Source of the DNA: Nephrocerus scutellatus
Taxonomy: Eukaryota; Arthropoda; Insecta; Diptera; Pipunculidae
Length of the DNA stretch: 64,000 nucleotides
Reading direction: 5' to 3'
Assembly: GCA_947095585.1 (NCBI GenBank)
Contig: OX352763.1
Span: 48,750,481-48,814,480 of the forward strand
Under the pieces are notes generated by a model that was given only the letters and a program-made list of their open reading frames with translations, had not been told where the DNA came from and did not search any database. Position numbers and translations under genes: made by a program. This document shows, one piece after another, positions 3,794-53,074 of this stretch (positions within the stretch are counted from its first letter, which is position 1; the number at the start of each line of letters is the position of its first letter).

Positions 3794-5082
<1,289 letters not shown>

Positions 5083-5088
5083 ACACAT

Positions 5089-23095: not shown

Positions 23096-23164
23096 CTTCG
23101 ATAACGTAAAACAAAATATTAATAAGAAAACTTACCTGACTTTTGAGAAAGCAAGAAAGACAAG

Positions 23165-26510: not shown

Positions 26511-26539
26511 ATAATTAATTCCTTTAATTCACTGACTAT

Positions 26540-28070: not shown

Positions 28071-28970
28071 TTCTCTCGCTGCATCCACCCCTGTTGCTTC
28101 GTCAAGCCATTACCCACGTCACTTCATCGAAGCTCTTACGTCACTCACGTCACTTCGTCGCTCAGGAGTCCCGACTGTCTCACGCCTCTCACGTCACTTT
28201 GTCAAGGCATTACTCAGATCGCTCACGTCTATGCTCGTCGATATTCACGTCAATTTGTCAAGGCATTACTCACGTTACTAACGTCAAGGCTCGTCACCAC
28301 TCACGTCACTCGTCGTCACTAACGGCAAGGCTCGTCACCATTCACGTCAGTCACGTCACTTCGTCAAGGCATTACCCACGTCACTTCATCGAAGCTCTCA
28401 CGTCACTCACGTCACTTCGTCGCTCAGGAGTCCCGACTGTCTCACGCCTCTCACGTCACTTTGTCAAGGCATTACTCACGTCACTAACGTCAAGGCTCGT
28501 CACCATTCACGTCAGTCACGTCACTTCGTCAAGGCCTTTCCCACGTCACTAACGTCAAGGCTCGTCACCATTCTCGTCGAAACTCACGTCACTTTGTCAA
28601 GGCATTACTCAGGACGCTCACGTCTAGGCTCGTCGATACTCACGTCAATTTGTCAAGGCATTACTCACGTTACTAACGTCAAGGCTCGTCACCACTCACG
28701 TCACTCGTCGTCACTATCGGCAAGGCTCGTCACCATTCACGTCAGTCACGTCACTTCGTCAAGGCATTACCTCAGGAGTCCCGACTGTCTCACGCCTACA
28801 CACCGTCCAGAAGTCTCGACTGTCTCACGCCTACGCACCGCTCAGAAGTCTCGACTGTCTCACGCCTACACACCGTTTAGAAGTCTCGACGGTCTCACGC
28901 TAACGCATCGCTCAGGACTTGCGCTCGTCAAAGTCTAACGTATCGCTTAGGACTCACGATAAATAATAGA
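28071..28970 (+). repeat. Short CACGTCACT-based repeats, F2 3' LTR
   Basis: Counterpart of 22041-22950 with small indels, including loss of about 40 bases near 28770. Confidence 0.8.
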
Positions 28971-29367: not shown

Positions 29368-30662
29368 TGTAACGAGGTTTTCCCAGCCGGGGTAAAACTC
29401 AGTGTGACCAGGGTTCTTCGTTTATAAGGTCGTTACAATAAAAAGAATTTATTTGTTTGGTTTTATTTTCTTCTTTCAGTTAACAATGATTTATTTGTGT
29501 AAATTAAAGTGTAATGCTTATGATATCCGGTCGTACCCTCGGTGGCGGTGTGCATGTGCTGGCGAAGCGTAGTACCGGGGCGTTGTGTATTGACTATGTG
29601 GATGGTGAGCGCCCTTTGGTTGTACCCCTTAGGTTGTAATATCAATGTTCGCTGAGACTTAGCGTGAAGCGTTTGGACGTAATGGCAAGGGTATCTCTCT
29701 TAAACCATTAATGCGACGAATGTGAAAGTCTAGCGTGCATCTTTTGTACGTAATGGCAAGGGTATCTCTCTTAAACCATTAATGCGAGGAATATGATAAG
29801 TCTAGCGTGCAGCTTTTGTACGTAATGGCAAGGGTATCTCTCTTAAACCATTAATGCGAGGAAATACTAGACGAGTTGCTAGTAGTAAGAATCACGGGGA
29901 AGGAAAGAGGCAGATTGTCGGAATTTCCTGCCCTTTTATACGTTTTGAATCGGGTGGAAAAGTCCTGTTATCCCTGAACCGTGGGACGATTGATGTTGTT
30001 TGCCTCCCACGGTCGGTCCGAGATCCCGTTGTTGCTATGCTCATTTTGTTTTGTGGTTCCGTTAAATCATCCGATTTTGTGTTGGCTTGTCCAGCTCTGT
30101 ACATGCTTTTTGTTGTATTCCTGCGTTGCAGAAATCAAAACATAATTTGGGTTTTAGCTTTGCTTGTCAGTGTGCTGTTGTTCTGCTCATCGTGTTGTTT
30201 GTTGTTGTTGTGTCTTGGTACGAAAATATTTTGCAATATGCAAATTCATTTGGTTTGAGTTGTTTTGGCTCAGCTCTGTGTGTTGGTTTTGTTGTTATTC
30301 GGCAGCGTTTTCGGGTTGTTGTTGCTGTGTTGTTCGGTATGTCGCTCCTTTTTTGTTGGTACTTTTCGGGTGTTGTAATAGGCATGCTCGTTTGGTTGGT
30401 GTTGCTTGGCTTCTATGATTTTGATGTTGTTCGGCTGCGTGTTTCGGGTTGTTGTTCTTTATGTCCTGTATCCCCTTGTGGGTCCTAGGGCCTCTACTAC
30501 GCCTACGCGCCATCGCGTGCGGTTCCTGGCAATAAGCTTCAGCTCTCTCCAACTCTTCCCCAATTGCCGTGCCTCCTCTTCAACTGTTCTGCGCCATGTA
30601 TTTCTCGGACGACCCGTTCTTCTACCATCCTGAGATAACGGGTTCCATTGCATTGCGTAGTT
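29368..30662 (-). mobile_element. F1 LTR2, first part (interrupted by U)
   Basis: Contains three 71-bp units, a TATA box on the minus strand (29940-29933) and the 3' portion of the RTE-like insert (from 30459). The U dimer enters at AGTT (30659-30662); the LTR resumes at 47572. Confidence 0.85.
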
Positions 30663-32219
30663 TGTAACGAGGTAAATGCCGGGGTACGCTCGCCGGCGTC
30701 CAGGGTCGTTTGCCTATTAACTAATAAGCCGTTGTTTTCGTTACAAAATTTTTCTTTATTGACTCCGTAAAATTTGGTTGAATATTTAGATTATAATGAT
30801 TAAATTGATCTCCTTTTTGATTTGATTTACTTTGTTTTGCCTGGTTTCGCTTTGGGGTTTCTCCTTGTTCTTCTGCCGTCACACCTAGTTTTGCTTCGGG
30901 GTTTCTCCTTGTCGTTCGTTGGCCGCTGACTCGGGTCTCGTAATGACGTGGTACTGGCAAGAACTTTGATTCGCACTTCAGGCGCCTTTAAGGGGAATTG
31001 GTCCCTACGGGATTTAGTCGGAAGGAGCAGGTCTTTCACCACTCGCTTCCCGCTAAATGGGAAAACTAGGCCCTACGAGAGATCGAAACTCAAGATGGAG
31101 TCCTATAAGGCCCGCCAGAGTCCTGAGTTCGAAGGGTTTCTGCCTAGCAGAGGGGAATCTCTCCCTATCGAGGTTTTCCAAAGTCTCGAGATGGAGTCCT
31201 ATAAGGCCCGCCAGAGTCTCAAGACAAAGAAAGGGGTTTCTGAACTAGATTTAATAGGGAGAAGCAGATCTTTCACTGTTCGCTCTCTACTAAATGGGAA
31301 AACTCGGCCCTACGAGAGATCGAAACTCAAGATGGAGTCCTATAAGGCCCGCCAGAGTCCAGAGTTCGAAAGGTTTCTATCTAGCAAAGGGGAATCTCTC
31401 CCTATCGAGGTTTTCAAAGTCTCGAGATGGAGTCCTATAAGGCCCGCCAGAGTCTCAAGACAAAGAAAGGGGATTCTAGACTAGCACTACTATTGGGAAA
31501 TTTGGCTCACCTGATTCCAGCGCCGACCAACGTTAATTGTCCTGTACCACGCCTTTAAAATTCCTCCGTCATTAGCTTCGTGGGTAGTTCTCATTTAATT
31601 ATGTTGTTCGGGTGTCTCGCTTGCGGTAAATGTCCGGTAGTTGTCGATGCGGCTGATATCTCCTCAAGGCGTTTAAATTTTTCACTGTTCACTTACCGTC
31701 TCTGGTGTCCCACTGTTGAAGTGAACAGTCTCACTGATGCAGACAAAAAGAGACCAATTCTTCATGTGTTTCACCTTTTATAACCTTTGCCTCTAGGTTG
31801 GCTTTGCATCTTTGTGGGCTTGTGGCGTTGTAGTTCTCTCATCTCTCTCGTGTTGTTGGTGGTTTTCTCTTGTAACAGACCGCTTGGGTTTTTTCCATTT
31901 GGCATTTGCTCACCTCCGTTACATCGTACATACTTGTTTGCATGCACGTGTTGTGTTGCTACGCTGTGTTTATTTGCATGCAGGCGCTGTGTTGCTATGC
32001 TGTATCGTTTGCATGCATGCTTTGGTTAGCGCTTGTTGATTTTTTCTTCGTGCGTGCGTGCCCTGCTGTACTTGTTTGTACGCACGTGTTGTGTTGCTAC
32101 GCTGGGCTTTTTGCATGTATTTTATCTCCGTGCGTGCACAGTGAGTGTAACGAAATTGTTGTTAGTGCGTGCAGTGGGTTGTTAGACGAAAATTGGTCAT
32201 TAAAATTTTCGTCGTTACA
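30663..32219 (-). mobile_element. U LTR-a (3' LTR of the downstream copy)
   Basis: In sense it runs TGTAACGACG...CCTCGTTACA. A TATA box TATAAAAG lies at 31782-31775. A 237-bp repeated block (AGATCGAAACTCAAGATGG at about 31082 and 31319) lies in the transcribed part. No gene is seen within the LTR apart from the last codon of the protease ORF. Confidence 0.88.
31775..31782 (-). promoter_or_regulatory. TATA box of U LTR-a
   Basis: Sense GGTTATAAAAGGTG; equivalents lie at 39484-39477 (LTR-b) and 47134-47127 (LTR-c). LTR-c is the promoter for the whole dimer and LTR-b could drive the second copy. Confidence 0.65.
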
Positions 32220-33606
32220 CTCCCCCCTTACTACCGGTGAATGTGACCTTTGCTTCTCCTTGGCGACTGAGCTGTATTTTCACCCTTTTTCCACCGATGA
32301 ATCGCTGGAACGACATTGATTTGCCTAGGACATGGTCTCTGCGTGCCTGCTCCACTATGTCTTCGAGTTCCTCCTCCGGTGTTTCCGCTTCTCTGCGCCT
32401 CTTGTGTGCCCTGCACCCTCCGTCGCCTTGTTCGCCATCCTTAGTGTGGCTGAGGTCGTGTTTGTCGCTGGGGTTGATGCCTTGTCCGTGGTTGTTGCTG
32501 AGGTCGTTGCCAGATGGGTTGATGCCTTGTCCGTGGTTGTTGCTGAGGTCGTTGCCAGAGGGGTTGGTGCCTTGTCCGTGGTTGTTGCTGAGGTCGTTGC
32601 CAGAGGGGTTGATACCTTGTCCGTGGTTGTTGCTGAGGTCATTGCCAGAGGGGTTGATGCCTTGTCCGTGGTTGTTGCTGAGGTCGTTGCCAGAGGGGTT
32701 GATGCCTTGTCCGTGGTTGTTGCTGAGGTCGTTGCCAGAGGGGTTGGTGCCTTGTCCGTGGTTGTTGCTGGGGTCGTTGCCAGATGAGTTGTTTTGGGTG
32801 TGTTCGTTTGTCGACAGGAATCGAATGAGTGCCCTTATCTCCTCTCTCTTCTCACTTATAACCTCGTGTTGGAACCAGTCACTTCGGTCATCCGAGTATT
32901 CCCGCATAGGCTGTTCCAAGAAGGATTCCACGAACTGCAGAAGGTACACCCCACAATCTGTAGAATTTGGTTGTTGCGGGGTCCTGACGTGGAATGCAGG
33001 TACCGTTCTTTCGCCGAACTCGACTGGTGCTGCTTCGGGAAATTTTGCCACGAACTCTCGCCTGAGGTAGCCACGAATAATCTCGACCGCGTGGTTGCGC
33101 AGGTTGCTAGCCAACGAGTCGAAAACGAGGATAGCCGGCCGGCCACCTTCTTCCCGTATGGCATCTCCTGGGTTGCAAATGATTATGAGGTACCAGTGTT
33201 TGTTCTCGTTCACCGGCACGATCACATGTGCTTTCCCGAAGATATCCAGCTTCCTTGTCCATAGGCGTACTCCGTCATGTCGTTCGGTCTCGCTTACCCC
33301 TCCACTGGCCAGTCGGGAATAGAAGAAGGTACTAAAAATATGTAGTCGGCTCCTATCCTCCTCTGAAAGTCGAAGATCGGCGACCCATCGAAGGTAGAAG
33401 TCGATGATGGCGTCGTTCAGGAACTTGCCTGGTCCCAACCTTCGGTACTCCTCCTTGCCGATACAGATCCCGCCTTGTCCTTGGGGATACCGCACCGAGA
33501 AATCTTGGGCTTCTACTCTCTCTGGCACTTCCACAACATTTGGGGCCTCATCGATCCTGACTTGGTTGAATGCTGCGCTTACTTCCCAAATTGTTGTTTT
33601 CTCCAT
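32215..33606 (-). CDS. Ulp1/SENP-like (C48) cysteine protease, third ORF of U copy 1
   Basis: Ulp1/SENP enzymes process or remove SUMO from proteins. This 463-residue ORF has the family layout: GPGKFLNDAIIDFYLRWV (58-75), HIFSTFFYSRL, KAHVIVPVNENKHWYLIIIC with His137, ILVFDSLAS with Asp163, and QPNSTDCGVYLLQFVESF with Cys218 and a preceding Gln for the oxyanion hole. The triad looks intact. Residues 270-380 are a 15-residue repeat (SGNDLSNNHGQGINP type, seven copies), followed by a basic tail. It sits downstream of Pol where env would be, and its stop codon lies inside the LTR, read through the polypurine tract. Expression probably needs splicing or reinitiation. Whether it acts on SUMO or another substrate cannot be seen. 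Confidence 0.88.
   Translation of the reverse strand: MEKTTIWEVSAAFNQVRIDEAPNVVEVPERVEAQDFSVRYPQGQGGICIGKEEYRRLGPGKFLNDAIIDFYLRWVADLRLSEEDRSRLHIFSTFFYSRLASGGVSETERHDGVRLWTRKLDIFGKAHVIVPVNENKHWYLIIICNPGDAIREEGGRPAILVFDSLASNLRNHAVEIIRGYLRREFVAKFPEAAPVEFGERTVPAFHVRTPQQPNSTDCGVYLLQFVESFLEQPMREYSDDRSDWFQHEVISEKREEIRALIRFLSTNEHTQNNSSGNDPSNNHGQGTNPSGNDLSNNHGQGINPSGNDLSNNHGQGINPSGNDLSNNHGQGINPSGNDLSNNHGQGTNPSGNDLSNNHGQGINPSGNDLSNNHGQGINPSDKHDLSHTKDGEQGDGGCRAHKRRREAETPEEELEDIVEQARRDHVLGKSMSFQRFIGGKRVKIQLSRQGEAKVTFTGSKGGV
32220..32230 (-). other. U polypurine tract (copy 1)
   Basis: Sense TAAGGGGGGAG directly before the LTR; it also encodes the last residues of the protease ORF. The copy 2 equivalent is at 39923-39933. 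Confidence 0.75.
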
Positions 33607-33867
33607 TTAATTGTTTATTATTATATTTTGTTTAGTTGTTGTTTTCTTTTTTTTCTTTCTTTGTAGTTTTAGTCACCGCACACGTCCGTTCACCACGAGA
33701 CTATTAACTAGAATGATTTGTAATGCCAAATCGCTCGTTTCTTTCTCCTTCTTATATGTTGTGGAACTTCATTTCTGTGATCTTGGTGTGAAAATAGCGG
33801 TTCTCGTGATTCGGTGTGGAAATAGCGGTGCTTGTGGTTTGGTGTAGAAATAGTGGTTCTTTCTTCT
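33607..33867 (-). other. Spacer between U pol and the protease ORF
   Basis: About 260 AT-rich non-coding bases. Several AG dinucleotides after pyrimidine-poor DNA give no convincing splice acceptor. Copy 2 carries an extra 14 bases here (about 41398-41411), so spacer length is not critical or one copy is altered. Confidence 0.5.
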
Positions 33868-36800
33868 TTATTTTTGGTTGCGTGCCTTACTAACCTTTTC
33901 CATGGCTTCGATCATACATTTCTTCTGTTCATGGTGGCTCGGCGGTATATCGTGGTATATCTTCACGTCGCTGACATGAGCGGTTCGCTCCTTTCTTTCT
34001 CCTTCCTTGGTTAGCACTAGGATTACGGGTGATTTGAAGGATTCTATGCGGTATGGTCCTTCATACTTTGGTGCCAGTTTCGCGTTAAAGTTCTCGCTTG
34101 CTTTGGACAAATGATGTTGTCTCACCCAGACCATTTGTCCTATCGATGGGGCCCAGGGGCGTCTTCGCAAGTTATAATGCCTTGCCTGGTCTTGCGCTGC
34201 CCGCTCCATATTATGCCGCACAATTTGGAACACCTCTTGCAGACGTGAAGCCTTGTTTGTCGGTGTCACTGTCGTTTCCATCGTTACTGTAGCGGGGGTT
34301 ACTTCGTCGTACAAGGTTTTTGGGAGCCGTGGCTCGCGTCCTTGTAACAAGAATGCTGGGCTGAACCCGGTTGTTTCAGACTTCGCAGTGTTTATCGCCA
34401 ACATTATTTCTGGAAGCTTCTCGTCCCAAAGCCGCTGATCGGCACCCAGGAGTTGTGCGATGATCATCTTGACTGTCCGGTTGGTCCTTTCTGTTGGGTT
34501 CTCTTGTGGCGTGTATGGTGCCGTGAATTGTTGCCGAATTCCCATCTCGCGCATAAATCGTTGGAAACCTCGAGCTGTGAATTGGGTTCCGTTATCGGTA
34601 ACAAGAACCTTAGGTATGCCAAATCGCGCCAGAATACGTTCCCTGAATGCCTTTTGCACTCCTTCTGCTGTGGCTGTGCGTAGTGGTATCAGCTCTGTCC
34701 ATTTGGAGAACTTGTCGAAGAAAACCAGTAGCATAGTGTTGCCATGTTTTGAACGAGGGAAGGGTCCCATGAAGTCTGCGCACAATATCGACCAAGGTTC
34801 TTCTGGTACTTGCGTCAGCATTTTTCCTGCTGGATGCTGCTGACCCGGCTTAAAGCGTTGGCAGACTTGGCATTTGTTGACGTGTCGCCGGATATCGCGA
34901 AACATCCCTGGCCAATAGTACCTGCCGCATACTCTCTCCGTCGTCTTCCGAACACCCATGTGTCCAGCTGTTGCATCGTCATGGTTCTCACGCATCACCC
35001 TGTCACGGCAATGGGTCGGCACACAGAGCTTCCATGGGGCACAATCGTCGTCGCCCGCTTGTCTGTGTATGTGACGGTACAGCTGTCCATTTTGCATTGC
35101 ATAGTCCGGAAATTTCTCTGGTTTCTCTAGTGCTTCCGCTATCTTCCGCTTGATCCAGCCACATTCCTGTCGTTCGGGCGGAGCATCAGCCACCCGGGCG
35201 AATACTTCTAGGGGTTGTCGCGATAAAGCGTCAGCAATCACGTTAAGCTTGCCTCTGCGGTATTGGATATCGAAGCTGTATTGCTGTAGTTCCAATGCCC
35301 ACCGTGCGATACGTCCTGCGGGGCTTTCGATCGAGTTGAGCCACTTCAGAGAAAGATGGTCCGTAATTACGCTGAACCTGTAACCTTCTAGGTAGGGCCT
35401 CATCTTCCTGATCCCCCATACGATCGCTAGGCATTCCTTCTCTGTTGGGGAGTAGTTGATTTCGGCTTTATTCAGGTGACGGCTGGCGTAGGCGATAACT
35501 TTTTCGTGGCCATTTACCTCTTGCGTAAGTACTGCACCCAAACCATAGTCGCTGGCGTCTGTTTGTAGGGTGAACTTTTGGGTAAAGTCTGGGCATGCCA
35601 GTACCGGTGCCTCTGTGAGCCTCAATTTGAGCTTATCGAAAGCCTCTTGCTCTTGTTCTGTCCACTTCCAATGTTTTCCCTTCTTGAGCAGACGTGTGAG
35701 TGGGTGGACGACATTGGAAAATTCTGGTACGAAACGCCTGTACCACGAAGCGATTCCCAAGCAGCGGCGCAGCTCCCGAACGTTCTTTGGTGGTTGCAGT
35801 TCCCGTATGGCGGCTACTTTCTCCGGGTCTGTGTGAATCCCTTCTTCACTAACGACGTGTCCGAGGTATTTAAGCTCTTTTTTAAAGAATTCACACTTTT
35901 CTAGATTAATCTTGAGGTTTGCTGCTCGCAATCGCCGGAAGACTTCCCTCAGATTCTGCATGTGGTGCTCTAACGTATTTCCAACCACGATAATGTCGTC
36001 CAAATAGGCAAATGCGTGGGGTTCCATTTCAGAGCCAATAACCTGATCTAGCGCTCGTTGAAAGGTGGCGGGCGCTGAGTGTAGGCCAAATGGCATGACC
36101 CTCCATTGAAATAATCCACGACCCGGGACTGTGAACGCTGTGAACTGTTTGCTTCCTTCGTGCATCGGGATTTGCCAGTAACCATTTTTTAGGTCCAGAC
36201 TGCTGATATAGTTTGCGTTCCTCAACTTGTCTAGGATGTGGTTGATTCTGGGTAGCGGGTATGCGTCTGGGACGGACTTGGAATTAAGCTGTCGGTAGTC
36301 GATGCAAAGCCTCCACTTTCCTGTCTTCTTTCGTACTAGCACAATAGGGGCGCTGTAGGGGCTGTGCGATGGCTCAATACATCCTTTACTCAATAGTTCG
36401 TCGACTTCCGCGTTGATTATTCCCTGCATTGCTGGATTCTTGGGAAAATACCGTTGCTTAACGGGGCGATCATCAGACAATATGATTTTGTGGCTGGCTA
36501 TGACTGTCGTTCCTTGTAACCTCTCAAACTTGGGCAATTCCTCATCTAAAAATGACTTGATTAACTCGCCTTCATCCTCTATGTTCCTGACCATGGTAAG
36601 CTTGGTGACTCCTTCCTGAAATCTGCTTCCACTGGTGTTATCTAACGAGAGTGATGAACCTCCGCAGCTCATGACAAGTCCAAGTTGAGCTAGACAGTCC
36701 ATTCCCAGCAGCACGTCGTCTATCGCTCCTGGTAGTACTAGAAAAAAAGTTTGACATCGTGCGGTTCCTAATTTCACTTCGACATCAATGCAGTTGTGAA

Positions 36801-37089
36801 TTTCCCTCGGGGTTCCGTCGGCCATACGTGCAATTATTTTCGTCGATCGTGGTTTGGTCTGGAACTGTCCCCGCTTTTTGATGAAATCCTCACTAGCAAA
36901 ACTTCGTGTTGCCCCCGTGTCTATGGTTGCGATCGCCGGTGTACCGTTGAGGGTTACATGCGCGTATACCCGGCTCGCGTCTTGCTTGAGAAATCCTACT
37001 GTCTTCGAGGCATCGGTGTCCGAGGTCCGGATGTGCCCCGCTCGTTCCGGTCCCCTCTTGCGTTTCCCGCGTTTAACCTGCAACAGTCT
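33868..37089 (-). CDS. Pol polyprotein of U copy 1 (protease, RT, RNase H, integrase)
   Basis: Makes and integrates element DNA. Residue numbers are from the TTG at 37083; there is no ATG because the frame is entered by frameshift from Gag. Aspartic protease DTGATRSFAS is at 55-64 with DDVLLGMD. The RT palm has SLDLKNGYWQ (Asp297) and AYLDDIIV (360-366). RNase H has TDASDYGLGAVL (508-519) and TDHLSLKWL. The integrase zinc HHCC is H701, H708, C738, C741. The catalytic triad is D770, D830, E865 with the D-D35-E spacing, followed by a C-terminal GPYRIE-type module. Domain order RT-RNaseH-IN marks Ty3/gypsy. All catalytic motifs are intact. Confidence 0.95.
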   Translation of the reverse strand, partial: RLLQVKRGKRKRGPERAGHIRTSDTDASKTVGFLKQDASRVYAHVTLNGTPAIATIDTGATRSFASEDFIKKRGQFQTKPRSTKIIARMADGTPREIHNCIDVEVKLGTARCQTFFLVLPGAIDDVLLGMDCLAQLGLVMSCGGSSLSLDNTSGSRFQEGVTKLTMVRNIEDEGELIKSFLDEELPKFERLQGTTVIASHKIILSDDRPVKQRYFPKNPAMQGIINAEVDELLSKGCIEPSHSPYSAPIVLVRKKTGKWRLCIDYRQLNSKSVPDAYPLPRINHILDKLRNANYISSLDLKNGYWQIPMHEGSKQFTAFTVPGRGLFQWRVMPFGLHSAPATFQRALDQVIGSEMEPHAFAYLDDIIVVGNTLEHHMQNLREVFRRLRAANLKINLEKCEFFKKELKYLGHVVSEEGIHTDPEKVAAIRELQPPKNVRELRRCLGIASWYRRFVPEFSNVVHPLTRLLKKGKHWKWTEQEQEAFDKLKLRLTEAPVLACPDFTQKFTLQTDASDYGLGAVLTQEVNGHEKVIAYASRHLNKAEINYSPTEKECLAIVWGIRKMRPYLEGYRFSVITDHLSLKWLNSIESPAGRIARWALELQQYSFDIQYRRGKLNVIADALSRQPLEVFARVADAPPERQECGWIKRKIAEALEKPEKFPDYAMQNGQLYRHIHRQAGDDDCAPWKLCVPTHCRDRVMRENHDDATAGHMGVRKTTERVCGRYYWPGMFRDIRRHVNKCQVCQRFKPGQQHPAGKMLTQVPEEPWSILCADFMGPFPRSKHGNTMLLVFFDKFSKWTELIPLRTATAEGVQKAFRERILARFGIPKVLVTDNGTQFTARGFQRFMREMGIRQQFTAPYTPQENPTERTNRTVKMIIAQLLGADQRLWDEKLPEIMLAINTAKSETTGFSPAFLLQGREPRLPKTLYDEVTPATVTMETTVTPTNKASRLQEVFQIVRHNMERAAQDQARHYNLRRRPWAPSIGQMVWVRQHHLSKASENFNAKLAPKYEGPYRIESFKSPVILVLTKEGERKERTAHVSDVKIYHDIPPSHHEQKKCMIEAMEKVSKARNQK

Positions 37090-38162
37090 TTAGTGCGAAC
37101 ATTTCTCCGGCCACATTCCCAGCAAAAAAGTCGCGTCTCGAATCTGCAACCTCTGTGGAAATGCCCCTGTTGACCACATCGGCGGCATGCCGTTCGTGGG
37201 TCAGTGAGAAACTCGGCGTCTGGTGTAATTCCACAGTGTATCGGCTGTGGGCTGCGTCTGTGTGTGACCGCAACCGGGTCTTTGTTTCCCCGAATCCTCT
37301 CGAAGTCCTCGGCCATTTCTATCAGCTCCTCCAGGTGATGGAAATCTCTACGGCGTATGTATAGCTGGTACTCCTGCAGGGCGTTCTCGAATATGCGATC
37401 TAGCCGTTGTTCCTCGGTGTAGTTGGCGTGACGCATCAGTGTTTGGAGGGCGAGGACGAAGTCTTTGAAACACTCGCGAGGTTTTTGGTGCCGTTGTCGG
37501 ATGTCGTCTTCTAATCGTTCTAGATAACGGTTCGGGAGAAAGAATTTCATAAAGTCCTTTTTGAAATCGCTCCATCGCTGCCACTGTCGGTTGTTGTTCC
37601 TGTACCAAGCAAGCGCACGATCGCGTAACAGCTCAGGCATTGTTCGAGGCAAGAAGTCCTTTTCCAGATTATAAACATCAGCCAGCTCCTCCACGCGTTC
37701 AACAAATGCGAGCGATTCCTTTCCGCCGTCGAATTTTACTGACCACTTTCTCACTTGGTCGATGAGTGCAGGGTATTGGGATGTACGTTCATTCGAAATA
37801 ACTTTTGTTTGACTCTCGCTGGATGGCTTTGGTACTTCTAAGCACGCTGGTCCCGTTAGCGGTGGGATCGGCGATGTACGTTCGTTTGGGGCGATTTTTA
37901 TTTGACTCCCCCTTGATGACTTCGGTATTTCTAGACACGCTGGTCCCGTTATAGGTGAGATCGGCGGAGGGGTTCGCGCGCCACTTACCTCTAGTTCCTT
38001 CAGGCGGGCTATCTGATCTTCTGTAAGGCTTTCGCTGTTGATGAGAGCCGAAAACCGTTTGCGCAATTCCTCAACAGTACCACTTGCTTCCAAGCCGAAT
38101 TCTTCCGCAAGTACCGCAAGTTCTCCCTTTTTCAGCTCGTAGACCCAACTTGTTTTTACCAT
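36996..38162 (-). CDS. Gag of U copy 1, with SAP-like N-terminus
   Basis: Particle protein of 388 residues starting at ATG 38162 (MVKTSW). Residues about 10-41 (ELKKGELAVLAEEFGLEASG...VEELRKRF) follow the SAP pattern of two helices with a GL..SGT turn, a DNA/chromatin-binding motif. Two repeats ending in GPACLE(I/V)PK precede the capsid-like domain (about 130-290). A canonical knuckle CRRCGQQGHFHRGC is at 326-339, with a second Cys cluster (CWEC...DCC). The last 88 bases overlap Pol. The capsid domain is clearly shared with F1 and F2. Confidence 0.9.
   Translation of the reverse strand: MVKTSWVYELKKGELAVLAEEFGLEASGTVEELRKRFSALINSESLTEDQIARLKELEVSGARTPPPISPITGPACLEIPKSSRGSQIKIAPNERTSPIPPLTGPACLEVPKPSSESQTKVISNERTSQYPALIDQVRKWSVKFDGGKESLAFVERVEELADVYNLEKDFLPRTMPELLRDRALAWYRNNNRQWQRWSDFKKDFMKFFLPNRYLERLEDDIRQRHQKPRECFKDFVLALQTLMRHANYTEEQRLDRIFENALQEYQLYIRRRDFHHLEELIEMAEDFERIRGNKDPVAVTHRRSPQPIHCGITPDAEFLTDPRTACRRCGQQGHFHRGCRFETRLFCWECGRRNVRTKDCCRLNAGNARGDRNERGTSGPRTPMPRRQ
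37071..37077 (-). promoter_or_regulatory. Probable -1 ribosomal frameshift site of U gag-pol (copy 1)
   Basis: The sense heptamer GTTAAAC sits in the Gag frame as AGG-TTA-AAC, exactly the register for -1 tandem slippage. The Pol frame is -1 to Gag and is open only from 37089, so the site lies at the start of the overlap. GUUAAAC is a documented viral slippery heptamer (arterivirus). GC-rich sequence follows and could fold. Confidence 0.7.
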
Positions 38163-38324: not shown

Positions 38325-38342
38325 GTCCCTGCTCGGGCGCCA
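38325..38342 (-). other. U primer-binding site (copy 1)
   Basis: Sense TGGCGCCCGAGCAGGGAC, two bases inside LTR-b; identical to F1 and F2. Between it and the Gag ATG is a 160-base leader containing long A tracts (T tracts on the plus strand, 38222-38320). Confidence 0.8.
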
Positions 38343-38344
38343 TT

Positions 38345-39922
38345 TGTAACGAGGTAAATGCCGGGGTACGCTCGCCGGCGTCCAGGGTCGTTTGCCTATT
38401 AACTAATAAGCCGTTGTTTTCGTTACAAAATTTTTCTTTATTGACTCCGTAAAATTTGGTTGAATATTTAGATTATAATGATTAAATTGATCTCCTTTTG
38501 ATTTGATTTACTTTGTTTTGCCTTGTTTCGCTTTGGGGTTTCTCCTTGTTCTTCTGCCGTCTTCTCCTTGTTCTTCTGCCGTCACACCTAGTTTTGCTTC
38601 GGGGTTTCTCCTTGTCGTTCGTTGGCCGCTGACTCGGGTCTCGTAATGACGTGGTACTGGCAAGAACTTTGATTCGCACTTCAGGCGCCTTTAAGGGGAA
38701 TTGGTCCCTACGGGATTTAGTCGGAAGGAGCAGGTCTTTCACCACTCGCTTCCTGCTAAATGGGAAAACTAGGCCCTACGAGGGATCGAAACTCAAGATG
38801 GAGTCCTATAAGGCCCGCCAGAGTCCTGAGTTCGAAGGGTTTCTGCCTAGCAGAGGGGAATCTCTCCCTATCGAGGTTTTCAAAGTCTCGAGATGGAGTC
38901 CTATAAGGCCCGCCAGAGTCTCAAGACAAAGAAAGGGGTTTCTGAACTAGATTTAATAGGGAGAAGCAGATCTTTCACTGTTCGCTCTCTACTAAATGGG
39001 AAAACTCGGCCCTACGAGAGATCGAAACTCAAGATGGAGTCCTATAAGGCCCGCCAGAGTCCAGAGTTCGAAAGGTTTCTATCTAGCAAAGGGGAATCTC
39101 TCCCTATCGAGGTTTTCAAAGTCTCGAGATGGAGTCCTATAAGGCCCGCCAGAGTCTCGAGACAAAGAAAGGGGATTCTAGACTAGCACTACTATTGGGA
39201 AATTTGGCTCACCTGATTCCAGCGCCGACCAACGTTAATTGTCCTGTACCACGCCTTTAAAATTCCTCCGTCATTAGCTTCGTGGGTAGTTCTCATTTAA
39301 TTATGTTGTTCGGGTGTCTCGCTTGCGGTGAATGTCCGGTAGTTGTCGATGCGGCTGATATCTCCTCAAGGCGTTTAAATTTTTCACTGTTCACTTACCG
39401 TCTCTGGTGTCCCACTGTTGAAGTGAACAGTCTCACTGATGCAGACAAAAAGAGACCAATTCTTCATGTGTTTCACCTTTTATAACCTTTGCCTCTAGGT
39501 TGGCTTTGCATCTTTGTGGGCTTGTGGCGTTGTAGTTCTCTCATCTCTCTCGTGTTGTTGGTGGTTTTCTCTTGTAACAGACCGCTTGGGTTTTTTCCAT
39601 TTGGCATTTGCTCACCTCCGTTACTTCGTACATACTTGTTTGCATGCACGTGTTGTGTTGCTACGCTGTGTTTATTTGCATGCAGGCGCTGTGTTGCTAT
39701 GCTGTATCGTTTGCATGCATGCTTTGGTTAGCGCTTGTTGATTTTTTCCTTCGTGCGTGCGTGCCCTGCTGTACTTGTTTGTACGCACGTGTTGTGTTGC
39801 TACGCTGGGCTTTTTGCATGTATTTTATCTCCGTGCGTGCACAGTGAGTGTAACGAAATTGTTGTTAGTGCGTGCAGTGGGTTGTTAGACGAAAATTGGT
39901 CATTAAAATTTTCGTCGTTACA
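38345..39922 (-). mobile_element. U LTR-b (shared middle LTR)
   Basis: Serves as 5' LTR of copy 1 and 3' LTR of copy 2. Distinguishing marks versus the outer LTRs are a duplicated TTCTCCTTGTTCTTCTGCCG near 38555-38580, CTTCCTGCTAAAT, GAGGGATCG, CGGTGAATG and an extra C near 39748. Confidence 0.88.
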
Positions 39923-41264
39923 CTCCCCCCTTACTACCGGTGAATGTGACCTTTGCTTCTCCTTGGCGACTGAGCTGTATTTTCACCCTTTTTCCACCGA
40001 TGAATCGCTGGAACGACATTGATTTGCCTAGGACATGGTCTCTGCGTGCCTGCTCCACTATGTCTTCGAGTTCCTCCTCCGGTGTTTCCGCTTCTCTGCG
40101 CCTCTTGTGTGCCCTGCACCCTCCGTCGCCTTGTTCGCCATCCTTAGTGTGGCTGAGGTCGTGTTTGTCGCTGGGGTTGATGCCTTGTCCGTGGTTGTTG
40201 CTGAGGTCGTTGCCAGATGGGTTGATGCCTTGTCCGTGGTTGTTGCTGAGGTCGTTGCCAGAGGGGTTGGTGCCTTGTCCGTGGTTGTTGCTGAGGTCGT
40301 TGCCAGAGGGGTTGATACCTTGTCCGTGGTTGTTGCTGAGGTCATTGCCAGAGGGGTTGATGCCTTGTCCGTGGTTGTTGCTGAGGTCGTTGCCAGAGGG
40401 GTTGGTGCCTTGTCCGTGGTTGTTGCTGGGGTCGTTGCCAGATGGGTTGTTTTGGGTGTGTTCGTTTGTCGACAGGAATCGAATGAGTGCCCTTATCTCC
40501 TCTCTCTTCTCACTTATAACCTCGTGTTGGAACCAGTCACTTCGGTCATCCGAGTATTCCCGCATAGGCTGTTCCAAGAAGGATTCCACGAACTGCAGAA
40601 GGTACACCCCACAATCTGTAGAATTTGGTTGTTGCGGGGTCCTGACGTGGAATGCAGGTACCGTTCTTTCGCCGAACTCGACTGGTGCTGCTTCGGGAAA
40701 TTTTGCCACGAACTCTCGCCTGAGGTAGCCACGAATAATCTCGACCGCGTGGTTGCGCAGGTTGCTAGCCAACGAGTCGAAAACGAGGATAGCCGGCCGG
40801 CCACCTTCTTCCCGTATGGCATCTCCTGGGTTGCAAATGATTATGAGGTACCAGTGTTTGTTCTCGTTCACCGGCACGATCACATGTGCTTTCCCGAAGA
40901 TATCCAGCTTCCTTGTCCATCGGCGTACTCCGTCATGTCGTTCGGTCTCGCTTACCCCTCCACTGGCCAGTCGGGAATAGAAGAAGGTACTAAAAATATG
41001 TAGTCGGCTCCTATCCTCCTCTGAAAGTCGAAGATCGGCGACCCATCGAAGGTAGAAGTCGATGATGGCGTCGTTCAGGAACTTGCCTGGTCCCAACCTT
41101 CGGTACTCCTCCTTGCCGATACAGATCCCGCCTTGTCCTTGGGGATACCGCACCGAGAAATCTTGGGCTTCTACTCTCTCTGGCACTTCCACAACATTTG
41201 GGGCCTCATCGATCCTGACTTGGTTGAATGCTGCGCTTACTTCCCAAATTGTTGTTTTCTCCAT
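39918..41264 (-). CDS. Ulp1/SENP-like cysteine protease, third ORF of U copy 2
   Basis: This 448-residue version of the copy 1 protein has the same catalytic His, Asp and Cys. It carries six rather than seven 15-residue repeats, which accounts for the 15-residue difference in length. Residue differences noticed include VRRWTRK for VRLWTRK and NNPSGN for NNSSGN. The frame is fully open, so two independently sampled copies of this gene are intact. Confidence 0.88.
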   Translation of the reverse strand: MEKTTIWEVSAAFNQVRIDEAPNVVEVPERVEAQDFSVRYPQGQGGICIGKEEYRRLGPGKFLNDAIIDFYLRWVADLRLSEEDRSRLHIFSTFFYSRLASGGVSETERHDGVRRWTRKLDIFGKAHVIVPVNENKHWYLIIICNPGDAIREEGGRPAILVFDSLASNLRNHAVEIIRGYLRREFVAKFPEAAPVEFGERTVPAFHVRTPQQPNSTDCGVYLLQFVESFLEQPMREYSDDRSDWFQHEVISEKREEIRALIRFLSTNEHTQNNPSGNDPSNNHGQGTNPSGNDLSNNHGQGINPSGNDLSNNHGQGINPSGNDLSNNHGQGTNPSGNDLSNNHGQGINPSGNDLSNNHGQGINPSDKHDLSHTKDGEQGDGGCRAHKRRREAETPEEELEDIVEQARRDHVLGKSMSFQRFIGGKRVKIQLSRQGEAKVTFTGSKGGV

Positions 41265-41539: not shown

Positions 41540-44500
41540 TTATTTTTGGTTGCGTGCCTTACTAACCTTTTCCATGGCTTCGATCATACATTTCTTCTGT
41601 TCATGGTGGCTCGGCGGTATATCGTGGTATATCTTCACGTCGCTGACATGAGCGGTTCGCTCCTTTCTTTCTCCTTCCTTGGTTAGCACTAGGATTACGG
41701 GTGATTTGAAGGATTCTATGCGGTATGGTCCTTCATACTTTGGTGCCAGTTTCGCGTTAAAGTTCTCGCTTGCTTTGGACAAATGATGTTGTCTCACCCA
41801 GACCATTTGTCCTATCGATGGGGCCCAGGGGCGTCTTCGCAAGTTATAATGCCTTGCCTGGTCTTGCGCTGCCCGCTCCATATTATGCCGCACAATTTGG
41901 AACACCTCTTGCAGACGTGAAGCCTTGTTTGTCGGTGTCACTGTCGTTTCCATCGTTACTGTAGCGGGGGTTACTTCGTCGTACAAGGTTTTTGGGAGCC
42001 GTGGCTCGCGTCCTTGTAACAAGAATGCTGGGCTGAACCCGGTTGTTTCAGACTTCGCAGTGTTTATCGCCAACATTATTTCTGGAAGCTTCTCGTCCCA
42101 AAGCCGCTGATCGGCACCCAGGAGTTGTGCGATGATCATCTTGACTGTCCGGTTGGTCCTTTCTGTTGGGTTCTCTTGTGGCGTGTATGGTGCCGTGAAT
42201 TGTTGCCGAATTCCCATCTCGCGCATAAATCGTTGGAAACCTCGAGCTGTGAATTGGGTTCCGTTATCGGTAACAAGAACCTTAGGTATGCCAAATCGCG
42301 CCAGAATACGTTCCCTGAATGCCTTTTGCACTCCTTCTGCTGTGGCTGTGCGTAGTGGTATCAGCTCTGTCCATTTGGAGAACTTGTCGAAGAAAACCAG
42401 TAGCATAGTGTTGCCATGTTTTGAACGAGGGAAGGGTCCCATGAAGTCTGCGCACAATATCGACCAAGGTTCTTCTGGTACTTGCGTCAGCATTTTTCCT
42501 GCTGGATGCTGCTGACCCGGCTTAAAGCGTTGGCAGACTTGGCATTTGTTGACGTGTCGCCGGATATCGCGAAACATCCCTGGCCAATAGTACCTGCCGC
42601 ATACTCTCTCCGTCGTCTTCCGAACACCCATGTGTCCAGCTGTTGCATCGTCATGGTTCTCACGCATCACCCTGTCACGGCAATGGGTCGGCACACAGAG
42701 CTTCCATGGGGCACAATCGTCGTCGCCCGCTTGTCTGTGTATGTGACGGTACAGCTGTCCATTTTGCATTGCATAGTCCGGAAATTTCTCTGGTTTCTCT
42801 AGTGCTTCCGCTATCTTCCGCTTGATCCAGCCACATTCCTGTCGTTCGGGCGGAGCATCAGCCACCCGGGCGAATACTTCTAGGGGTTGTCGCGATAAAG
42901 CGTCAGCAATCACGTTAAGCTTGCCTCTGCGGTATTGGATATCGAAGCTGTATTGCTGTAGTTCCAATGCCCACCGTGCGATACGTCCTGCGGGGCTTTC
43001 GATCGAGTTGAGCCACTTCAGAGAAAGATGGTCCGTAATTACGCTGAACCTGTAACCTTCTAGGTAGGGCCTCATCTTCCTGATCCCCCATACGATCGCT
43101 AGGCATTCCTTCTCTGTTGGGGAGTAGTTGATTTCGGCTTTATTCAGGTGACGGCTGGCGTAGGCGATAACTTTTTCGTGGCCATTTACCTCTTGCGTAA
43201 GTACTGCACCCAAACCATAGTCGCTGGCGTCTGTTTGTAGGGTGAACTTTTGGGTAAAGTCTGGGCATGCCAGTACCGGTGCCTCTGTGAGCCTCAATTT
43301 GAGCTTATCGAAAGCCTCTTGCTCTTGTTCTGTCCACTTCCAATGTTTTCCCTTCTTGAGCAGACGTGTGAGTGGGTGGACGACATTGGAAAATTCTGGT
43401 ACGAAACGCCTGTACCACGAAGCGATTCCCAAGCAGCGGCGCAGCTCCCGAACGTTCTTTGGTGGTTGCAGTTCCCGTATGGCGGCTACTTTCTCCGGGT
43501 CTGTGTGAATCCCTTCTTCACTAACGACGTGTCCGAGGTATTTAAGCTCTTTTTTAAAGAATTCACACTTTTCTAGATTAATCTTGAGGTTTGCTGCTCG
43601 CAATCGCCGGAAGACTTCCCTCAGATTCTGCATGTGGTGCTCTAACGTATTTCCAACCACGATAATGTCGTCCAAATAGGCAAATGCGTGGGGTTCCATT
43701 TCAGAGCCAATAACCTGATCTAGCGCTCGTTGAAAGGTGGCGGGCGCTGAGTGTAGGCCAAATGGCATGACCCTCCATTGAAATAATCCACGACCCGGGA
43801 CTGCGAACGCTGTGAACTGTTTGCTTCCTTCGTGCATCGGGATTTGCCAGTAACCATTTTTTAGGTCCAGACTGCTGATATAGTTTGCGTTCCTCAACTT
43901 GTCTAGGATGTGGTTGATTCTGGGTAGCGGGTATGCGTCTGGGACGGACTTGGAATTAAGCTGTCGGTAGTCGATGCAAAGCCTCCACTTTCCTGTCTTC
44001 TTTCGTACTAGCACAATAGGGGCGCTGTAGGGGCTGTGCGATGGCTCAATACATCCTTTACTCAATAGTTCGTCGACTTCCGCGTTGATTATTCCCTGCA
44101 TTGCTGGATTCTTGGGAAAATACCGTTGCTTAACGGGGCGATCATCAGACAATATGATTTTGTGGCTGGCTATGACTGTCGTTCCTTGTAACCTCTCAAA
44201 CTTGGGCAATTCCTCATCTAAAAATGACTTGATTAACTCGCCTTCATCCTCTATGATCCTGACCATGGTAAGCTTGGTGACTCCTTCCTGAAATCTGCTT
44301 CCACTGGTGTTATCTAACGAGAGTGATGAACCTCCGCAGCTCATGACAAGTCCAAGTTGAGCTAGACAGTCCATTCCCAGCAGCACGTCGTCTATCGCTC
44401 CTGGTAGTACTAGAAAAAAAGTTTGACATCGTGCGGTTCCTAATTTCACTTCGACATCAATGCAGTTGTGAATTTCCCTCGGGGTTCCGTCGGCCATACG

Positions 44501-44761
44501 TGCAATTATTTTCGTCGATCGTGGTTTGGTCTGGAACTGTCCCCGCTTTTTGATGAAATCCTCACTAGCAAAACTTCGTGTTGCCCCCGTGTCTATGGTT
44601 GCGATCGCCGGTGTACCGTTGAGGGTTACATGCGCGTATACCCGGCTCGCGTCTTGCTTGAGAAATCCTACTGTCTTCGAGGCATCGGTGTCCGAGGTCC
44701 GGATGTGCCCCGCTCGTTCCGGTCCCCTCTTTCGTTTCCCGCGTTTAACCTGCAACAGTCT
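41540..44761 (-). CDS. Pol polyprotein of U copy 2
   Basis: Same length and domains as copy 1 and fully open. Differences seen by eye are few (for example MVRIIEDEG versus MVRNIEDEG and FTAFAVPG versus FTAFTVPG) and do not touch catalytic motifs. The frame opens at 44761 and overlaps Gag by the same distance. Confidence 0.95.
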   Translation of the reverse strand, partial: RLLQVKRGKRKRGPERAGHIRTSDTDASKTVGFLKQDASRVYAHVTLNGTPAIATIDTGATRSFASEDFIKKRGQFQTKPRSTKIIARMADGTPREIHNCIDVEVKLGTARCQTFFLVLPGAIDDVLLGMDCLAQLGLVMSCGGSSLSLDNTSGSRFQEGVTKLTMVRIIEDEGELIKSFLDEELPKFERLQGTTVIASHKIILSDDRPVKQRYFPKNPAMQGIINAEVDELLSKGCIEPSHSPYSAPIVLVRKKTGKWRLCIDYRQLNSKSVPDAYPLPRINHILDKLRNANYISSLDLKNGYWQIPMHEGSKQFTAFAVPGRGLFQWRVMPFGLHSAPATFQRALDQVIGSEMEPHAFAYLDDIIVVGNTLEHHMQNLREVFRRLRAANLKINLEKCEFFKKELKYLGHVVSEEGIHTDPEKVAAIRELQPPKNVRELRRCLGIASWYRRFVPEFSNVVHPLTRLLKKGKHWKWTEQEQEAFDKLKLRLTEAPVLACPDFTQKFTLQTDASDYGLGAVLTQEVNGHEKVIAYASRHLNKAEINYSPTEKECLAIVWGIRKMRPYLEGYRFSVITDHLSLKWLNSIESPAGRIARWALELQQYSFDIQYRRGKLNVIADALSRQPLEVFARVADAPPERQECGWIKRKIAEALEKPEKFPDYAMQNGQLYRHIHRQAGDDDCAPWKLCVPTHCRDRVMRENHDDATAGHMGVRKTTERVCGRYYWPGMFRDIRRHVNKCQVCQRFKPGQQHPAGKMLTQVPEEPWSILCADFMGPFPRSKHGNTMLLVFFDKFSKWTELIPLRTATAEGVQKAFRERILARFGIPKVLVTDNGTQFTARGFQRFMREMGIRQQFTAPYTPQENPTERTNRTVKMIIAQLLGADQRLWDEKLPEIMLAINTAKSETTGFSPAFLLQGREPRLPKTLYDEVTPATVTMETTVTPTNKASRLQEVFQIVRHNMERAAQDQARHYNLRRRPWAPSIGQMVWVRQHHLSKASENFNAKLAPKYEGPYRIESFKSPVILVLTKEGERKERTAHVSDVKIYHDIPPSHHEQKKCMIEAMEKVSKARNQK

Positions 44762-47571: not shown

Positions 47572-48531
47572 AGTTTGCTATGGAACTGTCGCCTTTTCGG
47601 AGTGTATGATCAATCCACTGCCACTTCCGTCGTTGGATGGTTGTGCCTATTGGTTCCTGACCCGTTCTCTGGTAAAGATGTTCGTTAGAGATACGATTAG
47701 GCCAGAAAACCCTTAAGATGTTCCGTAGGCACCTAGTTACGAATGTTTGTAATCTTTTTGTGATAGTAGCGGTCACCTTCCAAGTGCTGCACCCATACAA
47801 CAGCACAGATTCAACATTTGAGCGGAACAGTCGCAGCTTGTTTTTTAAGCTGATCGCATTGCTTCGCCATATCATGGACATCATTCCAAAAACCGATTTT
47901 GCTTTGCCGATTCGGTTGACAATGTCCTGTTCGGTTCCACCTTCGGTCGAGACAATAGGGTTGTTGTTGCTATGTTGTAATAGGCATGCTCGTTTGCTCG
48001 GCTCGTCTATTAGTGTGCTGTTCGCTATGTCGCTCTTTTGTTGTTGCTGCTTTTTATCAGCGTTCGATCGTGATAGGTTGGGTTTGGTGAACCCTGTCGG
48101 CTATGTGTGTGGTGATCTGCTCTTTCTCACACTTGGAGGATAGTGGTTGGCCGCATTTGCCACTATCTGTATGGTTTGCCGACTTCAGTGACTTAGTTAT
48201 GACTCCTCCTCAGTGTTCTGCTCTCCCATGCGAGTGCAGAGTCGGTGGTTCTCAGTCTCTCTCCCCCTCTTAATAGAGGTTTCGTACATTAAGAGTTTTG
48301 CGTGGAGAAATGTTCGAAAGTTGCAAAACGAAGGGAAATACACAAACGGCGAAATCAAAATTGTTCTCACTCTATTAGTGAGAGCTGGGCGGCAAGTGAT
48401 CTTTCGCCTGTGACTAATAATAGTCACACTTGCGGCCACAATATTTGGTACAGGTTGTATAAAAAATGAAAAAAGTTTTAAATTTGTGTGGGAGAAATTC
48501 GTCCCACGCTTTGACGAATTTGTTCCTCACA
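47572..48531 (-). mobile_element. F1 LTR2, second part
   Basis: Resumes after U with AGTTTGCTATGG and ends CTCACA at 48531, followed by the unit 2 polypurine tract (48532-48541). It contains the rest of the RTE-like insert (to about 47960), which is open in the same frame as in LTR3 once U is ignored. Confidence 0.82.
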
Positions 48532-50820: not shown

Positions 50821-53074
50821 TGTAACGAGGTTTTCCCAGCCGGGGTAAAACTCAGTGTGACCAGGGTTCTTCGTTTATAAGGTCGTTACAATAAAAAGAA
50901 TTTATTTGTTTGGTTTTATTTTCTTCTTTCAGTTAAAAATGATTTATTTGTGTAAATTAAAGTGTAATGCTTATGATATCCGGTCGTACCCTCGGTGGCG
51001 GTGTGCATGTGCTGGCGAAGCGTAGTACCGGGGCGTTCTGTATTGACTATGTGGATGGTGAGCGCCCTTTGGTTGTACCCCTTAGGTTGTAATATCAATG
51101 TTCGCTGAGACTTAGCGTGAAGCGTTTGGACGTAATGGCAAGGGTATCTCTCTTAAACCATTAATGCGACGAATGTGAAAGTCTAGCGTGCATCTTTTGT
51201 ACGTAATGGCAAGGGTATCTCTCTTAAACCATTAATGCGAGGAATATGATAAGTCTAGCGTGCAGCTTTTGTACGTAATGGCAAGGGTATCTCTCTTAAA
51301 CCATTAATGCGAGGAAATACTAGACGAGTTGCTAGTAGTAAGAATCACGGGGAAGGAAAGAGGCAGATTGTCGGAATTTCCTGCCCTTTTATACGTTTTG
51401 AATCGGGTGGAAAAGTCCTGTTATCCCTGAACCGTGGGACGATTGATGTTGTTTGCCTCCCACGGTCGGTCCGAGATCCCGTTGTTGCTATGCTCATTTT
51501 GTTTTGTGGTTCCGTTAAATCATCCGATTTTGTGTTGGCTTGTCCAGCTCTGTACATGTTTTTTGTTGTATTCCTGCGTTGCAGAAATCAAAACATAATT
51601 TGGGTTTTAGCTTTGCTTGTCAGTGTGCTGTTGTTCTGCTCATCGTGTTGTTTGTTGTTGTTGTGTCTTGGTACGAAAATATTTTGCAATATGCAAATTC
51701 ATTTGGTTTGAGTTGTTTTGGCTCAGCTCTGTGTGTTGGTTTTGTTGTTATTCGGCAGCGTTTTCGGGTTGTTGTTGCTGTGTTGTTCGGTATGTCGCTC
51801 CTTTGTTGTTGGTACTTTTCGGGTGTTGTAATAGGCATGCTCGTTTGGTTGGTGTTGCTTGGCTTCTATGATTTTGATGTTGTTCGGCTGCGTGTTTCGG
51901 GTTGTTGTTCTTTATGTCCTGTATCCCCTTGTGGGTCCTAGGGCCTCTACTACGCCTACGCGCCATCGCGTGCGGTTCCTGGCAATAAGCTTCAGCTCTC
52001 TCCAACTCTTCCCCAATTGCCGTGCCTCCTCTTCAACTGTTCTGCGCCATGTATTTCTCGGACGACCCGTTCTTCTACCATCCTGAGATAACGGGTTCCA
52101 TTGCATTGCGTAGTTTGCTATGGAACTGTCGCCTTTTCGGAGTGTATGATCAATCCACTGCCACTTCCGTCGTTGGATGGTTGTGCCTATTGGTTCCTGA
52201 CCCGTTCTCTGGTAAAGATGTTCGTTAGAGATACGATTAGGCCAGAAAACCCTTAAGATGTTCCGTAGGCACCTATTTACGAATGTTTGTAATCTTTTTG
52301 TGATAGTAGCGGTCACCTTCCAAGTGCTGCACCCATACAACAGCACAGATTCAACATTTGAGCGGAACAGTCGCAGCTTGTTTTTTAAGCTGATCGCATT
52401 GCTTCGCCATATCATGGACATCATTCAAAAAACCGATTTTGCTTTGCCGATTCGGTTGACAATGTCCTGTTCGGTTCCACCTTCGGTCGAGACAATAGGG
52501 TTGTTGTTGCTATGTTGTAATAGGCATGCTCGTTTGCTCGGCTCGTCTATTAGTGTGCTGTTCGCTATGTCGCTCTTTTGTTGTTGCTGCTTTTTATCAG
52601 CGTTCGATCGTGATAGGTTGGGTTTGGTGAACCCTGTCGGCTATGTGTGTGGTGATCTGCTCTTTCTCACACTTGGAGGATAGTGGTTGGCCGCATTTGC
52701 CACTATCTGTATGGTTTGCCGACTTCAGTGACTTAGTTATGACTCCTCCTCAGTGTTCTGCTCTCCCATGCGAGTGCAGAGTCGGTGGTTCTCAGTCTCT
52801 CTCCCCCCCCTCTTAATAGAGGTTTCGTACATTAAGAGTTTTGCGTGGAGAAATGTTCGAAAGTTGCAAAACGAAGGGAAATACACAAACGGCGAAATCA
52901 AAATTGTTCTCACTCTATTAGTGAGAGCTGGGCGGCAAGTGATCTTTCGCCTGTGACTAATAATAGTCACACTTGCGGCCACAATATTTGGTACAGGTTG
53001 TATAAAAAATGAAAAAAGTTTTAAATTTGTGTGGGAGAAATTCGTCCCACGCTTTGACGAATTTGTTCCTCACA
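50821..53074 (-). mobile_element. F1 LTR3
   Basis: Complete 2254-base LTR: three 71-bp units, TATA box at 51393-51386, RTE-like insert, U3 end CTCACA at 53074, then the PPT. Compared with LTR2 it carries a longer C run (CTCCCCCCCCTC at about 52801). Confidence 0.87.
51912..52500 (-). pseudogene. RTE-like reverse-transcriptase tail in F1 LTR3
   Basis: 170 open residues (52424-51912) plus an upstream frame-shifted segment. Same motifs as in LTR1; residues differ at a few positions (LKNKLRLF for LNTKLRLF, QWIDHTLRK for QWIGHTLRK). Confidence 0.75.

Follow-up and report, generated by a model that had tools for sequence, protein, structure and literature searches.

A young Ty3/gypsy retrotransposon of the fly Nephrocerus scutellatus carries an intact SENP7-like C48 protease gene as its third open reading frame

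Transposable elements that bear Ulp1-type domains are already known. In Ginger1, a gypsy-type integrase is described as being followed by an Ulp1 domain, and Ulp1-like domains are also reported from Mutator elements (PMC2836005). The nematode retrotransposons NeSL and Utopia are described with an Ulp1-like cysteine protease domain (PMC4640811), an Ulp1 domain is reported for the plant Mutator-like elements (MULE) KIU / VANC, presented as elements that escape silencing by hypomethylation (PMC13317346), and giant planarian gypsy elements are reported to carry other host-type domains (PMC6431247). Here we describe a stretch of 64,000 nucleotides, referred to below as the window, from the fly Nephrocerus scutellatus (Diptera, Pipunculidae; contig OX352763.1 of assembly GCA_947095585.1, positions 48,750,481 to 48,814,480 of the forward strand). 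Its minus strand holds element U, a Ty3/gypsy retrotransposon with a Ulp/SENP-type protease encoded by a third open reading frame (ORF3) between pol and the 3' long terminal repeat (LTR). We found no gypsy element with a Ulp/SENP gene in the open-licence PMC literature, in agreement with the original prediction, made from the DNA letters alone, that no established gypsy lineage is known to have such a gene; its account of known captures holds for plant DNA transposons and left NeSL, Utopia and Ginger1 unmentioned. To our knowledge, the gypsy carrier, the position of the gene and the nearest protease subfamily appear to be new.

With respect to Ginger1, ORF3 gives an LTR-retrotransposon counterpart to the integrase-Ulp1 layout. 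However, Ginger1 is a cut-and-paste DNA transposon with terminal inverted repeats, whereas element U has reverse transcriptase (RT), RNase H, gag, LTRs and a separate ORF, and the two are likened by description, not by sequence. NeSL and Utopia are retrotransposons as element U is, but of the non-LTR type and with the domain N-terminal in the RT protein (PMC4640811), while KIU / VANC are plant DNA transposons, the role of whose Ulp1 domain is not established according to the review (PMC13317346). Closer by pol are P0019, P0022, P0042 and P0048, pols of Drosophila and others from the same gypsy lineage, which share a similar C-terminal module but lack a C48 domain between it and the integrase in the pol ORF. 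In errantivirus-type gypsy elements, env is the third ORF, lying between pol and the 3' LTR and extending into the LTR. ORF3 is likewise a third ORF, placed between pol and the 3' LTR and reaching into the latter; we found no env match in it, C48 being its only Pfam match, and the env slot of a gypsy element is here occupied by a host-type enzyme.

We read element U as a young gypsy element whose third ORF, a SENP7-like C48 protease gene captured ancestrally, would deSUMOylate nuclear proteins and thereby weaken silencing. The structural part of this reading, namely the anatomy, the intact ORF, the catalytic set, the nearest subfamily and the presence in a related element, is strong. Enzyme activity, SUMO-chain preference, expression route and anti-silencing role are what we infer, and because the functional part is of that kind, we give the full reading about an even chance. 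The element, whose two internal regions are called copies A and B, is laid out as follows.

30659..30662, no strand: target duplication AACT, low-coordinate flank
30663..32219, minus strand: LTR 1 (3' LTR of copy A), 1557 bp, ends TGTAACGA..TCGTTACA
32220..32229, minus strand: polypurine tract AAGGGGGGAG within the end of ORF3, seen on inspection of the sequence
33868..37083, minus strand: pol of copy A, 1071 aa, with aspartic protease, RT, RNase H, H2C2 and integrase core
36996..38162, minus strand: gag of copy A, 388 aa, Retrotrans_gag match (Pfam), overlapped by pol in the -1 frame
38325..38342, minus strand: primer binding site TGGCGCCCGAGCAGGGAC, beginning two bases past the LTR end
38345..39922, minus strand: LTR 2, common to both internal regions (self-comparison)
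41540..44755, minus strand: pol of copy B, 1071 aa
44668..45834, minus strand: gag of copy B, 388 aa
46015..47571, minus strand: LTR 3 (5' LTR of copy B), one substitution relative to LTR 1
47572..47575, no strand: target duplication AACT, high-coordinate flank
52112..52115, no strand: empty target site, one AACT only, in a sibling of the repeat that surrounds element U

The domain order by Pfam is that of Ty3/gypsy (Metaviridae) elements, with protease, RT, RNase H and integrase in pol and gag upstream, and so are the ends, with TG..CA LTRs, a short target duplication, and primer site and polypurine tract at the expected places. We take AAGGGGGGAG to act as the polypurine tract, and TGGCGCCCGAGCAGGGAC is presumably a primer site of the tRNA-Lys type. 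Self-comparison gave two internal regions and three LTRs with only one AACT pair; given this pair and the empty site in the sibling repeat, the array is therefore a single insertion, and its two internal regions probably reflect later recombination or the insertion of a dimer. Copies A and B differ by four codons in gag, three in pol, and two substitutions plus one 45-nt unit in ORF3, and element U is young. Since they share one array, the two ORF3 copies are not independent evidence, and their divergence is too small to inform on selection, the ratio of non-synonymous to synonymous substitutions (dN/dS) being uninformative.

The features of ORF3 are these.

32215..33606, minus strand: ORF3 of copy A, 463 aa, intact; encodes a SENP7-like C48 protease followed by a repeat linker and a C-terminal module
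32236..32379, minus strand: C-terminal module, about residues 410-457 of copy A, for which a helix and three strands are predicted; a similar stretch ends related pols without C48
32470..32791, minus strand: 45-nt tandem repeat of copy A, 7.2 copies, encoding 15-aa linker repeats, disordered in the predicted structure
32839..33426, minus strand: Peptidase_C48 match of copy A, residues 61-256, with His137, Asp163, Cys218 and Gln212
33607..33867, minus strand: gap between pol and ORF3 of copy A, 261 nt
39918..41264, minus strand: ORF3 of copy B, 448 aa, intact, linker shorter by one 15-aa repeat
40173-40449: 45-bp repeat of ORF3 copy B, 6.2 copies

The original prediction had described a 463-residue ORF between pol and the 3' LTR with the full C48 motif set, a stop within the LTR and an intact second copy at 39918-41264. 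As an observation this is confirmed, and its identification of the third ORF of a gypsy element as Ulp/SENP-type agrees with the gag, pol and LTR anatomy and the C48 match. The second copy is intact but, having shared LTRs and one AACT pair, is not an independent insertion, and the interpretation then offered is partly supported. The functions it suggested, a countering of silencing or a shielding of integrase or Gag from SUMOylation, would be plausible.

Each ORF3 copy matches a single Pfam family, PF02902 Peptidase_C48, over profile positions 1-212 of 217, at 114.8 bits (E 6.5e-33) for copy A and 118.1 bits (E 6.5e-34) for copy B, the cut-off being 20.7 bits, and this identification is not due to chance. 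His137, Asp163 and Cys218 are present in both copies, the oxyanion Gln is Q212, in a column invariant across a 10-row alignment, and the predicted structure of the domain has the Ulp/SENP catalytic fold. In this regard, a non-catalytic ORF3 acting as a SUMO-binding decoy or scaffold is barely credible: non-catalytic roles of such proteases are reportedly treated in one review, and nothing specific in the present data speaks for such a role, while both window copies and P0034, a relative described below, retain the catalytic His, Asp and Cys as well as the oxyanion Gln.

By sequence, profile and predicted fold, the domain is nearest to human SENP7 and yeast Ulp2, with which it shares the catalytic residues, and the NEDD8 protease falls well below. 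SENP1/2/3/5 are more distant from it than SENP6/7 and Ulp2, and a tree of 13 rows (SENP6 and fly Velo not among them) splits it from SENP1/2/3 at 100/99. Both a Pfam search for Peptidase_C48 and a placement between SENP1-5 and SENP6/7 had been proposed as checks on the original prediction; the first gave a match well over the cut-off and the second the Ulp2/SENP6-7 branch. That ORF3 acts on ubiquitin or NEDD8, or cleaves the element's polyprotein, rather than acting on SUMO, is improbable in view of this kinship with SUMO proteases and of the aspartic protease domain that pol itself carries. ORF3 differs from SENP7 and Ulp2, however, in being retrotransposon-encoded and in having another C-terminal part.

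As to expression, pol and the ORF3 ATG are in the same reading frame, and three further in-frame stops lie downstream of the pol stop, the last immediately preceding the ATG. Read-through from pol into ORF3 is ruled out by these stops in the 261-nt gap, and ORF3 therefore needs a separate message or its own initiation. Most likely, element U makes the protein from a separate message, spliced or internally started, and a relative makes it within Pol. In errantiviruses env is expressed from a spliced message, and the position of ORF3 suggests that it may be expressed in the same way. The final codons read AGT AAG GGG GGA G/TG TAA (the slash marks the LTR junction); the polypurine tract thus encodes K-G-G, and the LTR supplies the stop. 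Repeat number (7.2 versus 6.2) is the sole length difference between the ORF3 copies, and the linker tolerates in-frame changes of this kind. Plus-strand ORFs at 32237-33070 and 32332-32787, over the repeat linker, were put down to the antisense strand of ORF3, with no search aimed at them.

Beyond the window, 120 of 579 matches to U pol were listed, and the named ones among them come from flies (Drosophila, Eurosta), bees (Osmia, Lasioglossum) and an ant (Cataglyphis). One of them, P0034 (1483 aa, from an ENA contig of 6409 bases), has a pol 56% identical to that of element U over 1063 residues and, behind the integrase in the same ORF, a C48 domain (E 5e-21) with its catalytic residues. A C48 domain (E 6.2e-11) also occurs in P0127 of Glossina brevipalpis (316 aa), where it is preceded by 27 residues that resemble the end of a retropepsin, at E 0.001 to the window's other element; a similar likeness to P0034 spans 32 residues at E 0.006, and direct comparison of the P0127 N-terminus with the U pol protease gave no match. 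As this link is short and the gene model lacks an RT, P0127 is the weaker evidence as a candidate retroelement relative. ORF3 is thus no private insertion at this locus, and a private insertion is what would have refuted the original prediction; the case is strong through P0034 and weaker through P0127. Weak C48 profile scores in P0006 sit within pol and were dismissed as noise. An alignment search over at most 8000 candidates returned at least five proteins, three of them new, and no relative turned up in viral contigs scanned with U pol, U ORF3, P0034 and P0022.

These relatives also bear on whether ORF3 could be a recent neutral capture, a host SENP fragment kept intact only by the youth of the element. 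The near-identical ORF3 copies say nothing on selection, and the U C48 domain is nearer to cellular SENP7-like proteins than to P0034. Yet P0034, with a pol only 56% and a C48 domain only 29% identical to those of element U, has kept this domain in the same position and with its catalytic residues, and the best cellular match to ORF3 among the proteins found, 44% (partial) or 34% identical, is no recent copy. We consider a neutral capture very improbable.

The C-terminal module of about 50 residues is predicted to fold as a helix and three strands also alone and without an alignment (predicted local distance difference test, pLDDT, 84-89). A similar stretch ends four related pols without C48, namely P0019, P0022, P0042 of Drosophila rhopaloa and P0048 of D. 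subpalustris (compare GGRNYRIVVSRQG of P0022 with GGKRVKIQLSRQG of element U). A profile of these four tails scored element U at 15.8 bits, with 0 of 5000 shuffles as high, and P0034 at 11.7 bits, with 1 of 5000, the best among 123 other C-termini reaching 3.9. With P0019 and P0022 only, U scored 13.0 bits (0 of 2000 shuffles), topping 125 other C-termini with two from Drosophila close behind (12.9 and 12.4), and P0034 scored 5.4 bits (22 of 2000); with the two Drosophila tails only, the values were 3.5 bits for U (63 of 5000) and 8.8 bits for P0034 (2 of 5000). These counts are partly post hoc, since P0019 and P0022 were selected by eye and it was the first profile that pointed to the Drosophila pair. 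As a lone query, the U tail found P0022 (E 0.91) and P0019 (E 1.4) first, the best reversed sequence being at 0.53, and P0034 was absent among the matches listed. Searched alone against the PDB, the module had its best match at E 0.41, and none reached E 0.001. Most simply, the module would already have closed the 3' coding region when the C48 domain was inserted there. An ancestor would have gained a SENP6/7-like catalytic domain, ultimately from a cellular gene, between the integrase and this module, and ORF3 would now be a C48 protease joined through a repetitive, disordered linker to a small lineage module.

Several observations weigh against an ancestrally captured SENP7-like enzyme. PF02902 is present in the pol ORF of only 1 of the 120 listed relatives, P0034; the other 119 carry no precomputed PF02902 match in the pol ORF, although a protein list would miss a separate ORF3 such as that of element U. 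The C48 domain of P0034 alone ranks SENP7 first but Ulp2 under SENP1 and SENP2. Direct comparison of the U and P0034 tails gave no significant likeness, with 259 of 2000 and 372 of 5000 shuffles as high, and only profiles of C48-less tails distinguish the two from shuffles. A single clade of U, P0034 and P0127 is neither shown nor rejected in the tree (approximately unbiased test, AU, p 0.15; long branches), where U with P0127 has support 59/35 and P0034 with P0127 a p of 0.09. Finally, the long His-Asp insert of the SENP6/7 type is not found in element U, where the stretch measures 26 residues versus 60-108 in P0001, P0002 and P0126 and about 79, as read from the alignment, in the SENP7 construct.

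Because this insert is missing, we call ORF3 SENP7-like by sequence kinship and not a SENP6/7 orthologue. A Loop-1 insertion near the N-terminus characterizes the Ulp2/SENP6-7 branch. In that region PQGQGG of element U is aligned opposite PPTKGG of SENP7, an alignment that alone says nothing on function. More generally, conserved insertions inside the catalytic domain are described for this branch (PMC4281951).

The three retroelement-type C48 domains, of U, P0034 and P0127, are 26-33% identical in pairs. That C48 is more diverged than pol between U and P0034 would fit fast evolution or separate captures, and the three domains may stem from separate captures. All have a short His-Asp stretch of 23-27 residues; it is also seen by eye in the alignment of P0003, a protein with no known link to an element, and is thus no proof of common origin. 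In a pol tree of 63 rows, U pairs with P0006 (Shimodaira-Hasegawa-like approximate likelihood ratio test, SH-aLRT, 91), and U and P0034 fall within one 40-row clade without being resolved as sisters.

Regarding function, SENP6, SENP7 and Ulp2 are described as mainly editing SUMO chains, and KAP1 and HP1 have been put forward as chromatin targets of SENP7 (PMC4281951). In ovarian somatic cells of the fly, Panx is reported to require SUMOylation in order to silence transposable elements transcriptionally; without it Panx loses transcriptional repression, and a SUMO fusion restores it (PMC13195609). From these findings, a retrotransposon SENP7-like enzyme would be well suited to weaken silencing. 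The ORF3 protein may be an isopeptidase that removes SUMO from nuclear proteins, and its activity would weaken SUMO-dependent silencing through PIWI-interacting RNA (piRNA) and heterochromatin, to the benefit of the element. That an insect gypsy lineage retains a SENP6/7-like SUMO protease, between integrase and lineage module, as a counter-defence against such silencing is a possibility that we put forward tentatively. We know of no LTR-retrotransposon gene aimed at the Panx SUMOylation step.

The main rival, which we regard as rather unlikely, holds that ORF3 is a SUMO isopeptidase that acts on Gag and integrase of the element itself or on factors of the pre-integration complex and has no anti-silencing role. 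In P0034, the domain behind the integrase in one ORF would be produced with Pol, a fused layout that favours such targets, and the Ulp1 or OTU domain described behind the gypsy-type integrase of Ginger1 has been suggested to function in transposition or repair (PMC2836005). In element U, however, ORF3 is separate, behind in-frame stops, and not fused to the integrase. If the anti-silencing reading were true, an enzyme of a gypsy element would be the LTR-retrotransposon equivalent of a viral immune antagonist, and a single enzyme, compared with its catalytic mutant, would allow the arms race between retrotransposon and nuclear silencing to be tested.

Elsewhere in the window, several near-identical repeats encoding gag and aspartic protease occur at 49253-50638, 53796-55181, 58176-59561, 62372-63187 and 19168-20505 (minus strand). 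In tblastn searches on them, U pol matched the protease part only and U C48 gave no match; their gag shares about 47% identity with that of element U, and the sequence with which the U LTR ends, CTCGTTACA, is found again next to them. By appearance these repeats are non-autonomous relatives, and they might rely on the machinery of element U. A related gag and protease fragment at 23147-25280 (plus strand) is about 53% identical to U gag, and its protease end resembles P0127.

Unrelated features include a non-LTR retrotransposon ORF at 7703-10195 (minus strand; endonuclease and RT, 830 aa), with a partial copy, 99.7% identical, at 5081-7294 (minus strand), and an ORF at 17326-18054 (minus strand) that matches DUF6451 (PF20049, E 3.7e-12). 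Tandem arrays of 95 bp at 20788-22037 and 26537-28071 hold 13 and 16 copies with 98% matches and several frames open, and long 13-bp and GT-rich arrays occupy 1911-2527 and 3794-5081.
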